Shown one piece after another: positions 7,579 through 21,952 of a stretch of DNA of 33,229 nt; the stretch's first letter is position 1, and each line of letters opens with the position of its first letter. Origin of the DNA: Bacillota bacterium (GTDB lineage Bacteria; Bacillota; Dethiobacteria; Dethiobacterales; Dethiobacteraceae); the NCBI GenBank assembly GCA_012522335.1, contig JAAYKP010000061.1, positions 1-33,229 on the forward strand, in the 5' to 3' direction. The position numbers were made by a program, and so were the translations under genes. Under the pieces are notes generated by a model, which saw nothing but the letters and a program-made list of their open reading frames with translations, did no database searches and had not been told where the DNA came from.

Positions 7579-7654
<76 letters not shown>

Positions 7655-18896: not shown

Positions 18897-18929
18897 AAAA
18901 AAGCGCCCTGCCTATTTATGACGCAGGGC
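18897..18929 (-). terminator. Terminator overlapping the end of spoIVFB
   Basis: On minus GCCCTGC, an 11-base loop and GCAGGGC are followed by GC and six T. The spoIVFB stop codon lies in the loop, so the stem uses the last codons of the gene. Confidence 0.82.
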
Positions 18930-19796
18930 AGTCCCAATGGTGGCATAAAGTCCCTCTTTAACAATGGTCTCTACAATTTCATCTTCCATCACTTCTCCTA
19001 TAACCCGACCTTCTTTATTGATTATCAGGACACGATGGAACTTTTTCATAGCAAAGTGCCGCAAAATATCTTTCATCGGGGTATCGCGCAAAGAGAGCAG
19101 GCTAACTAAGGGCATCACGCCCTGTTCATAGAGGATCCTTTTCTTTCTGCCCAAACCGCGAATAAAAGCATACATGGCGGCCGTTTTTTCTTTTTCGGAG
19201 GCGAAATATAAAAAAAAGGCGGCCGCCAGCAGTGTAAGGTGCAAATCACCTAAGTAGAAGAGATAGAGCGCCAGCACAAACAGCAGCAGTGCCAGTAATT
19301 GACTAATCCTGATGGCCAGTTCTGTTGCCTGTCGAAAGCCAAGCACCCCACTGAGACGGGCACGCAAAATCCGTCCGCCATCAAGGGGCAGAGCAGGTAA
19401 CAGGTTAAAGAAACCTAAAGTTAAATTACTGCGGATAAAAAGCAGTAACATTTTATGCTGCTGCCAGGCAGGATATTTAGCGTAAAGCAGCAGCGCCAGC
19501 GCTGCCAGTATAAAATTAAAAATGGGCCCGGCCAACGAGACCACACTCTCCACTTGTGGGTCTAACTCTAACACATCCTCCAGTTTGGCAACACCACCAA
19601 AGGGAAACAATTCTACCTCGCTCACTTCTAGACCTTGGGCCCGGGCTGTAAGCAGATGTACCAGCTCATGGGCTAATACCAAACCAAATAACATCAGCGT
19701 TTCACTAAAATAACCAAAAAAGGCCAGTAAAAACAGCAGCACAACAAACAGCCAATGAAAGCTAAAAGTAATACCGCCAAGCCGGAACAGTTTCAA
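18912..19796 (-). CDS. spoIVFB: Site-2 protease of the M50 family, SpoIVFB type
   Basis: In Bacillus, SpoIVFB cuts pro-sigma-K in the outer forespore membrane to activate late mother-cell genes. The 294 residues show several membrane helices, HELVH (43-47) zinc ligands and LPLDGG with Asp139 as third ligand. The C-terminal part (about 225-294) is a CBS domain, which binds ATP in SpoIVFB. The start is TTG at 19796, with AGGAGAGG seven bases upstream. It follows spoIVFA by 15 bases and ends in its own terminator. Membership of the sporulation branch is inferred from the CBS domain and from the SpoIVFA-like partner upstream. Confidence 0.88.
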   Translation of the reverse strand: MKLFRLGGITFSFHWLFVVLLFLLAFFGYFSETLMLFGLVLAHELVHLLTARAQGLEVSEVELFPFGGVAKLEDVLELDPQVESVVSLAGPIFNFILAALALLLYAKYPAWQQHKMLLLFIRSNLTLGFFNLLPALPLDGGRILRARLSGVLGFRQATELAIRISQLLALLLFVLALYLFYLGDLHLTLLAAAFFLYFASEKEKTAAMYAFIRGLGRKKRILYEQGVMPLVSLLSLRDTPMKDILRHFAMKKFHRVLIINKEGRVIGEVMEDEIVETIVKEGLYATIGTALRHK

Positions 19797-19811: not shown

Positions 19812-20621
19812 TTAGTTGGTTTGATTGAGAAATTGTTCAGGATCTATCGGTTGTTTTTCCTGCCAGACTTCAAAATGAAGATGGCTTTCCCCCTCAACGG
19901 CTGCGGCGAGGCGGGCAATCTCTTCGCCTTTAGCCACCTGGTCACCGGCTTTAACAACAGAGTCTGTGACGCGGCCATAAATAGTTACTGTATCATCAGC
20001 ATGCTGGATGTAAACAGTCTCACCATAAACAGGATGGGCAGGATCTACCAACATCACCGTACCAGCCAGCGCTGCATAAACCGGAGAGCCGGGCTCTGCG
20101 CTGACATCAATGCCATAGTGCATTTCCACGTCATTAGTACCGGGGATGATTCGTACGCCATAGGGACTGAATAGTTCACCGTTAACGGGCGCAGTCATCT
20201 CCTCAGGCGCAGTAACTGTTTCCTTAGACAAAGGATCTTTTCCGTCGCTCTCCCGCTGCCGGCTAAAATCTCGCAGCGACTGCAGCACAGGCTGGACAGA
20301 AGCAGCAAGCTCTGCAGGATCTGTTTGCCTGACCGTCAGCTGGTAGGCCCAGTCCACTACACGATTTGCCAAGGGTGTGTTAAATAAACTAAGGACACCT
20401 AAACAGATCACGACAATAATAGCCGCCACCGTTTTTTGAAATTGATTTTCCCACCAATGTCTGGGCAGCAAAGCAGGGAGCTCCGGCACACGAGCTGCCC
20501 TGGATGTCTGCGCATAGCCATTGTAATAAGCGGCACTGCTTCTTGGCCGACGTTCCCGGCGCTGTTCCAGACGTTCCCGCAGACCAAATTGCGGTGCCTG
20601 CCAGCGGTGACCGTTTCTCAC
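19812..20621 (-). CDS. spoIVFA: SpoIVFA-like membrane protein with LytM/M23 domain
   Basis: In Bacillus, SpoIVFA anchors and restrains the protease SpoIVFB until a forespore signal removes it. The 269-residue protein has a basic N-terminal tail, one membrane helix (about 63-80) and a C-terminal LytM (M23) domain. Zinc ligands His168 and Asp172 (MHYGID) and His249 in HLH are present. The other catalytic histidine, normally in a YxHL motif, is Arg217 (YGRV). This suggests a binding or scaffolding domain without hydrolase activity. The start is GTG after a GGGGGGAG site. A large inverted repeat lies just upstream. Confidence 0.83.
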   Translation of the reverse strand: MRNGHRWQAPQFGLRERLEQRRERRPRSSAAYYNGYAQTSRAARVPELPALLPRHWWENQFQKTVAAIIVVICLGVLSLFNTPLANRVVDWAYQLTVRQTDPAELAASVQPVLQSLRDFSRQRESDGKDPLSKETVTAPEEMTAPVNGELFSPYGVRIIPGTNDVEMHYGIDVSAEPGSPVYAALAGTVMLVDPAHPVYGETVYIQHADDTVTIYGRVTDSVVKAGDQVAKGEEIARLAAAVEGESHLHFEVWQEKQPIDPEQFLNQTN

Positions 20622-20652
20622 TATACTCCCCCCTTAGAGGTTTGTCCTGATC

Positions 20653-20686
20653 CATGTATATTAACTTGTCCGCCAAGATATACATG
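20653..20686 (-). repeat. Large inverted repeat ahead of spoIVFA
   Basis: CATGTATAT (20653-20661) and ATATACATG (20678-20686) are perfect 9-base arms. Inside them CTTG (20665-20668) and CAAG (20674-20677) pair, with a TAA bulge and a 5-base loop. There is no T-run, so it is not a terminator. It lies 32 bases before the spoIVFA start, in the promoter or early leader, and could be an operator or a leader RNA hairpin. Confidence 0.6.
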
Positions 20687-20710
20687 TTTTTGTGGATAAA
20701 CATCATTAAG

Positions 20711-20741
20711 AAATCCACCTGCTGCCAACGGGTGGATTTTT
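20711..20741 (-). terminator. Probable terminator after rodA
   Basis: AAATCCACC (20711-20719) and GGTGGATTT (20731-20739) form a 9-base stem with an 11-base loop, 25 bases after the rodA stop codon. The downstream T-run on minus is short (TTTCTT). Confidence 0.65.
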
Positions 20742-20765: not shown

Positions 20766-21872
20766 TTAAAACATTAATTTCTGCCGCCGCATACCGATAT
20801 TGAGGACAACACCAATGGCCATCATATTCATCATCAGTGAACTGCCCCCATAAGACATAAAAGGCAGCGGAATTCCTGTGACGGGCATGATACCAATTGT
20901 CATGCCGATATTCACCAGAATATGAAAAGTCATCATTACTGCCACACCAATGCAGACTAACATCCCAAAAGTATCCTTAGCCAGAAAAGCCAGGCGGAGA
21001 ATGCGGAGAATTAAAAAAGTGTAAAGCAGAATTAAAATCACACTGCCTACAAAGCCTGTCGCCTCAGCATATGCCGAAAAAACAAAGTCTGTATGCTGCT
21101 CCAATAAAAAGTTTAAAGCATTTTGTGTGCCGGGGGCAAAAAGTCCCTTACCCTGTAACCCACCGGAACCTACAGCAATTAACGACTGGATGATTTGATA
21201 ACCGTCATTGAGAGGATCAAGGTAGGGATTAATAAAGATAATCAAGCGTTTTTTTTGATAATCCTTAAGCAAAAGCCACAGTGCCGGGGCTCCGATGGCC
21301 AAGCCAATACCGGCATAGGTCAGTAAATGCTGTACTCTGAGACCGGCCATATAAAGCATGCCAAACAAAATGACAGTAAAAACCAGTGAAGTGCCTAAAT
21401 CCGGCTGCAAAAAAACTAATCCCATGGGGAGGGCAACATGAAAAAAGGCCGGAATTGCACTGGACATATCCTCAAAATTTCCTTCCTGTGCTGATAATAA
21501 GCGAGCCAGGGAAATAATGATACCCAGTTTGGCAAACTCGGACGGCTGCAGCTCAAAAAAACCTAGATCTATCCAGCGCTGTGCGCCGCCGCCTTTAGAC
21601 CCGATGAAAAGCACGGCCACAAGCATCGCTACTATAGCCAGATACATAATGGGTGCCAGGCGAAAAAAATAGGTGTAATCAATACTTAAGATAAACAGCA
21701 TGGCTACAAAACCAACGGCAAAGCGTATCAGCTGTCGCTTGGCAAAATATAGTGGATCTCCTGTTATATTAATGGTAGTACTGGTAATAATTAGCAAACT
21801 GACTGCTACAATAGTACACACTAAAATCAGCAGCAGCCAGTCGAAATTGCGCAGCAATCTGCGGTCAAACAC
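20766..21872 (-). CDS. rodA: Peptidoglycan polymerase RodA (SEDS family)
   Basis: RodA polymerises lipid II into glycan strands during cell elongation, together with the transpeptidase PBP2. About ten membrane helices are evident. SEDS signatures include GGGAQRWIDLGFFELQPSEFAKL, FLQPDLGTSLVF with the key Asp, and the C-terminal PLPFMSYGGSSL. From the GTG at 21872, which has GAGGTG five bases upstream, the protein has 368 residues. The ATG at 21899 lacks a ribosome site. The gene is alone between two terminators. Its PBP2 partner, mrdA, lies 2 kb upstream with the Min genes between them. Confidence 0.95.
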   Translation of the reverse strand: MFDRRLLRNFDWLLLILVCTIVAVSLLIITSTTINITGDPLYFAKRQLIRFAVGFVAMLFILSIDYTYFFRLAPIMYLAIVAMLVAVLFIGSKGGGAQRWIDLGFFELQPSEFAKLGIIISLARLLSAQEGNFEDMSSAIPAFFHVALPMGLVFLQPDLGTSLVFTVILFGMLYMAGLRVQHLLTYAGIGLAIGAPALWLLLKDYQKKRLIIFINPYLDPLNDGYQIIQSLIAVGSGGLQGKGLFAPGTQNALNFLLEQHTDFVFSAYAEATGFVGSVILILLYTFLILRILRLAFLAKDTFGMLVCIGVAVMMTFHILVNIGMTIGIMPVTGIPLPFMSYGGSSLMMNMMAIGVVLNIGMRRQKLMF

Positions 21873-21952
21873 ATTCCCACCTCTGATCTGTCTATACATC
21901 TATAAAAGTTGGGAAAAAAGCAATTCAGGGCTGAGATAATTTCCTGTCCGAG

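Follow-up and report, generated by a model that had tools for sequence, protein, structure and literature searches.

A likely sigmaE-type promoter underlies an inverted repeat upstream of spoIVFA in a Dethiobacter-like metagenome lineage

Introduction

In Bacillus subtilis, spoIIID is itself under the control of sigmaE. SpoIIID operators carry an 8-base core, RRACARNY (WWRRACARNY in the full 10-base form), and are found near the polymerase site. Among described systems, the B. subtilis spoIVF operon is closest to the locus analyzed here; the portion of the published work that we draw on reports that spoIVF has a sigmaE promoter and that spoIVFA and spoIVFB are repressed by SpoIIID (PMC517825). 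According to the same portion, SpoIIID shifts DNA from upstream of spoIVFA in vitro, and additional bands suggest two or more sites; as a rule, sites that act in repression overlap the polymerase site, the SpoIIID footprint near spoVE P2 runs from +16 to -1, and B. subtilis sigmaE promoters, scored with longer boxes, have a gap of 12 +/- 1 between them (PMC517825). In Clostridioides difficile, the mapped sigmaE promoter of spoIIID has the form ATA-N16-CATATATA, and the relevant sections of the source report no homologs of SpoIVFA or SpoIVFB in this species (PMC3789822). The open-licence literature that we searched names no spoIVF promoter of sigmaE type that is palindromic or works in both directions.

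Here we describe a 34-base inverted repeat that precedes a spoIVF-like operon in a 33,229-nt stretch of DNA (hereafter the window) from a metagenome-derived member of the Bacillota. We think it very probable, judging from sequence comparisons, that in this Dethiobacter-like spore former the feature is a sigmaE-type promoter of the spoIVFA-spoIVFB operon, on the minus strand, with a likely SpoIIID operator, an arrangement that would deliver SpoIVFA and SpoIVFB as a pulse. So read, the locus extends the sigmaE and SpoIIID logic of the pro-sigmaK checkpoint, described in Bacillus, to a Dethiobacter-like metagenome lineage through conservation alone.

Results

An inverted repeat lies in front of a spoIVF-like operon

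The two genes of the operon lie on the minus strand of the window. The first (19812-20621) encodes a protein with a C-terminal Peptidase_M23 domain (E 2.2e-24) and with no NCBIfam match above cut-off; we call it spoIVFA-like because of synteny. The second (18912-19796) encodes a spoIVFB-like intramembrane metalloprotease with an M50 protease domain (E 8.2e-23) and a CBS match under its cut-off; this protease matches the solved SpoIVFB chain 8vjl_A (E 1.5e-15), and matches MJ0392 better (3b4r_A; E 2e-24). Upstream are rodA (20766-21899, minus strand), minE and minD, and farther away in the window is an ordinary tRNA gene (7582-7654, minus strand). The near relatives of this genome are metagenome genomes titled Bacillota, Firmicutes, Clostridiales, Clostridium or Dethiobacter.

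The minus strand between the end of rodA (20766) and the GTG of spoIVFA (20621) reads ...TTATCCACAAAAACATGTATATCTTGGCGGACAAGTTAATATACATGGATCAGGACAAACCTCTAAGGGGGGAGTATAGTG. It includes a Shine-Dalgarno region of spoIVFA, AAGGGGGGAG (20626-20635, minus strand), which has its counterpart in a similarly placed G-rich stretch in relatives, as well as a stem-loop between rodA and the promoter (20711-20739), which was flagged as a terminator-like site on the plus strand only and may be a terminator that insulates spoIVF from rodA.

The repeat (20653-20686) has the nested 9- and 4-base arms and the bulge that the initial annotation described: outer arms at 20653-20661 (CATGTATAT) and 20678-20686 (ATATACATG), complementary over all 9 bp (100%), and an inner pairing of CTTG with CAAG, with a loop of 5 nt and a bulge of 3 nt. 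Folded as RNA, the minus strand reaches -10.5 kcal/mol (z -3.87) and the plus strand -9.0 kcal/mol (z -4.12). That annotation had placed the repeat far beyond chance, and it is indeed significant, although the effect is milder than claimed: when the intergenic stretch (144 nt) was shuffled 5000 times with its dinucleotides preserved, 48 of the shuffles contained a 9-bp perfect repeat with a loop of 3-20. With such a repeat in about 1% of shuffles, the inverted repeat is thus unusual but short of extraordinary; the intergenic stretch itself contains two such 9-bp repeats, this one and the stem-loop at 20711-20739. The exact 9-bp arms, 8-24 bases apart, were found in only one of 59 genomes, none of them of the same genus, and in a single place, that of the window.

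We also considered a terminator at the repeat and rejected it, as the initial annotation had done. A terminator scan made no call at 20653-20686, despite five T directly after the arm at 20678-20686 on the plus strand, and the only gene-sized DNA preceding these T on that strand is antisense to spoIVFA.

The arms coincide with promoter boxes conserved upstream of spoIVFA

We compared the upstream regions of spoIVFA at 27 loci: that of the genome itself, 25 others (match E <= 1e-20, 59 genomes searched), and one more (L105), the sole addition from 77 further loci. Fourteen near loci among these 77 (L095-L104, L106-L109) were taken as genomes already included, and the remaining ones had weaker query matches, many of them confined to the M23 domain. 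Also left out were L110, with 24% identity over 9-269, and the upstream regions of L111, L118, L126, L162 and L166. The pattern GYATAW-N15/16-ATATAH occurs in 26 of the 27 regions, whereas in 200 shuffling rounds the count averaged 0.04 and never exceeded 1, a contrast that overstates the independence of the loci because they have common ancestry. The one region that lacks the pattern (L057; best matrix score 1.5) is outside the 26-row alignment, yet is counted among the 27 loci.

Since the pattern was composed after the sequences had been viewed, the invariant columns of the alignment are partly forced, but neither the spacing nor the contrast with shuffles is forced by it. Moreover, unforced columns are also conserved: an A at column 29, just 5' of ATATA, in 25 of 26 rows, and a T at column 37, three bases past ATATA, in 22 of 26. 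Alignment with MAFFT, with no pattern imposed, produced the same block in 11 loci (one unrelated row in that alignment, L007:1-30, is in no count). Within the spacer between the boxes, most columns have no base that exceeds half of the rows.

In the window, both boxes fall within the arms of the repeat. The -35 element, GTATATC (20677-20683, minus strand; mostly GCATAT in relatives), lies within the arm at 20678-20686, and the -10 element, TAATATACAT (20654-20663, minus strand; core AATATACA at 20655-20662), lies within the arm at 20653-20661. The initial annotation had noticed a resemblance to sigmaE boxes while calling their spacing and match poor; the resemblance is there, but the second part of that judgment looks wrong, since the geometry is ATA-N16-AATATACA and 26 of 27 loci have the boxes.

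To score these sites we used a matrix built from the 25 relatives, with the window excluded. The promoter site ranked first among 199,134 window scores (21.9 bits), and the third-ranked site had only 12.0 bits. The same matrix gave 7.9-11.6 bits for the regions upstream of spoIIID in all 9 genomes in which they were scored, compared to a 95th percentile of 6.2 for 200 stretches of 250 nt drawn at random from the window; these spoIIID regions have TCATAW...ATATATT with like spacing. Scores upstream of other sporulation genes were mixed: -6.4 to 11.6 bits for spoIIIAA (4 of 9 above 6.2), 3.2 to 19.2 bits for spoIVA (2 of 9), and -7.8 to 10.3 bits for sigK (1 of 9), while no such promoter was seen in 9 upstream regions of bofA (250 nt each; -5.3 to 4.8). 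Thus, the matrix, which finds other sporulation genes poorly, describes the spoIVF promoter and not sigmaE promoters at large.

We assign the promoter to sigmaE because of its geometry and of what has been published on B. subtilis and C. difficile. The relevant regulators are encoded: sigE in the genome itself, where alone it was sought (402.1 bits, cut-off 348.6), and, in family checks that covered 9 of the 59 genomes and also included sigK, spoIIID, spoIIIAA and spoIVA in 9 of 9 and bofA in 9 of 9 (7 over cut-off). The genome's own SpoIIID matches the solved structure 2l0k (E 2.8e-27). Two features of the boxes speak against this reading: the -10 in the window starts with A, whereas sigmaE -10 boxes usually start with C, and the -35 has T at a base that is C in 22 of 26 loci. 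A sigmaK promoter is less likely than a sigmaE promoter, because the -35 has ATA, which sigmaE promoters also have; for sigmaK, the -35 is given as AC in the part of the source used here (PMC3789822).

Transcription is likely to start near 20648, ~7 nt past the -10 and about 27 nt before the GTG. RNA polymerase with sigmaE would read GTATATC (20683-20677) and AATATACA (20662-20655), start near this position and so turn the spoIVF operon on in the mother cell.

We note that L110 shows no promoter in the upstream stretch first inspected but has a 22.8-bit match to the matrix 307 nt before the match start (position 2001), ahead of a distant M23-domain relative; no GGACAA was found in the 400 nt searched.

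A candidate SpoIIID operator covers the predicted start point

Just downstream of the boxes is GGACAAAC (20640-20647, minus strand), which spans about +1 to +8 and is most likely, by its sequence and placement, a SpoIIID operator covering the start point that we predict. This sequence is found downstream of the promoter boxes in 22 of the 27 loci (shuffle mean 0.055), 8 or 9 nt after ATATAN in 17 loci and 6 to 14 nt after it in the other five; all 17 matching loci of the family (the genome itself and 16 relatives) have it, and so does L105. If the RRACARNY core is considered, one more locus is added (GGACAACC), and 4 of the 27 have no RRACARNY box at the operator position. By itself, GGACAAAC occurs in the window about as often as chance predicts (once, with 0.91 expected), and a search of the genome for the layout ATATA-N3-16-GGACAAAC gave no second site, with one hit also for the reversed-pattern control. 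The longer form in the window, CAGGACAAAC, deviates from WWRRACARNY at base 1, is absent from the 31 matches of that pattern, and agrees at 8 of 10 positions with the SpoIIID consensus TAGGACAAGC, as quoted in the section of PMC11180830 consulted.

There may be a second SpoIIID site in the promoter spacer, GGACAAGT (20664-20671, minus strand), which also supplies the inner CAAG arm of the repeat. An RRACARNY core is present at this spacer offset in 3 of 27 loci, as GGACAAGT in the window and L046 and as GGACAGGT in L050.

SpoIIID would cover the start point by binding GGACAAAC and then switch the promoter off, with the result that SpoIVFA and SpoIVFB would be made in an early mother-cell pulse. 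A role in timing sporulation proteolysis, which the initial annotation had proposed to be exerted through the dyad or an RNA switch, is not upheld in that form, but may be recast as the joint action of sigmaE and the likely SpoIIID operator.

The symmetry arises mostly from the promoter boxes

The palindrome is mostly the -35 and -10 boxes mirroring each other in this one genome, because a -35 like GTATAT and a -10 like ATATAC are reverse complements. The second base of the -35 is C in 22 of 26 aligned loci and T in the window, and it is this T, together with matching flanks, that completes the 9-bp arms here. When promoters were generated by sampling each alignment column of the relatives, 1.3% had 9-bp arms, compared to 0.085% when the same letters were shuffled. 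Among the 25 relatives, the length of the longest arms varies between 3 and 9, with L052 also reaching 9, in another register. Thus, comparison with relatives, which the initial annotation had suggested, divides the feature in two (59 genomes, none of the same genus): the promoter is conserved but the palindrome is not. We take the inverted repeat to be incidental to the promoter boxes, and a lineage-specific role of the symmetry is possible.

Weighing other explanations of the repeat

We considered whether the repeat is an RNA switch or a leader hairpin within the spoIVFA message, one of two functions raised by the initial annotation, together with the idea that compensatory changes would reveal it. 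The fold is stable (z about -4), and pairing and covariation are slightly above those in shuffled alignments: 62.0% of cells are paired, compared to 58.4% (3 of 500 shuffles reach 62.0%), and the covariation score is 0.144, compared to 0.105 (10 of 500), while none of the slid versions of the structure equals the observed pairing or covariation. Even among the sampled promoters, moreover, a stability of -10.5 kcal/mol is rare (0.27%). These signals are partly expected, however, because the structure came from one row of the alignment. RNAalifold found no consensus structure in the aligned loci, a search of Rfam up to E 1 gave no match, and the window structure loses one of its pairs (5-30) in 22 of 26 rows, owing to a -35 of GCATA; the three pairs that never vary are the ATA/TAT common to both boxes. 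Furthermore, none of the 25 relatives has a fold more stable than -6.7 kcal/mol in the corresponding stretch, and the hairpin would lie upstream of the predicted start, outside the message. We therefore find an RNA element hard to credit. The other proposed function, an operator for a dimeric regulator that recognizes the 9-bp dyad, is very unlikely as well: the dyad is perfect and above chance, but neither the genome itself nor the 58 relatives has a further copy of the exact arms, and where conserved half-sites had been predicted, the aligned loci show no conservation at the outer three bases of the -35 arm. That the repeat is due to chance, with no tie to any element, seems to us next to negligible; although about 1% of shuffles of the stretch contain one, both arms fall on boxes shared by 26 of 27 loci.

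The symmetry does have one consequence that bears on function, in that it creates a strong sigmaE-like match on the plus strand, GTATATT (20656-20662) with AGATATACAT (20676-20685), such that the promoter might be bidirectional and yield a short divergent transcript toward the end of rodA. This match ranks second of the 199,134 scores, at 17.9 bits, above the 9 spoIIID upstream regions scored with the same matrix, and antisense scores of 9.6 to 14.2 in 7 of 25 relatives are within the range of the spoIIID scores. On the other hand, a palindromic promoter gives scores on both strands regardless of use, and the divergent product would probably run into the stem-loop at 20711-20739 after some 20-50 nt. 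In addition, the antisense score stays below 6 in 18 of the 25 relatives and is 14.2 at most; these scores speak against general conservation of a two-way promoter. We regard such a promoter as unlikely, and equally doubt the regulatory scheme that it would permit, in which the symmetric spoIVF promoter of this lineage serves both spoIVFAB and a short divergent RNA, with polymerase competition tuning the dose of the pro-sigmaK protease.

Discussion

The reading that we favor, a sigmaE-type promoter with a SpoIIID operator, brings this locus close to the B. subtilis spoIVF operon, as far as the latter is known from the published description consulted here: the operon is the same, the boxes are of sigmaE type and there is a SpoIIID-like site, possibly several, but the -10 in the window begins with A and its boxes form a perfect dyad (PMC517825). 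The position of the candidate operator over the start point resembles the SpoIIID footprint near B. subtilis spoVE P2, although binding in the window is only predicted (same portion of PMC517825). The spacing from the ATA of the -35 to the -10 octamer is identical to that of the C. difficile spoIIID promoter, in which the -10 starts with C and not with A (PMC3789822, in the part considered). More generally, near-complementary promoter boxes can masquerade as a regulatory palindrome.

Several further observations concern the surrounding sporulation genes. The sigK-like gene of this genome (L084 1270-1629, contig C26) matches TIGR02846 over positions 2-117 only (183.4 bits, under cut-off), compared to nearly full-length matches over cut-off in all 8 relatives searched; the gene appears to be broken in two, and a skin-like insertion or a break in the assembly could be the reason. 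Elsewhere (C109:21601-21666), a 28-aa frame has a weak match to positions 205-226 of the same family, and the 102-aa ORF adjoining the sigK-like gene has no Pfam match. Directly upstream of the promoter is a perfect TTATCCACA (20691-20699, minus strand), which we take to be DnaA-box-like; it is the sole copy in the window, with 0.33 expected. Upstream of spoIIIAA in 9 genomes (L073-L081), we noticed by eye a GTCCYCAT-like stretch at the -10, the reverse complement of which, in the genome itself, resembles the SpoIIID core. Finally, inspection by eye of the 9 spoIIID upstream regions (L064-L072) revealed that TCATAW...ATATATT is followed by TAACAAA or similar, a possible site of autoregulation.
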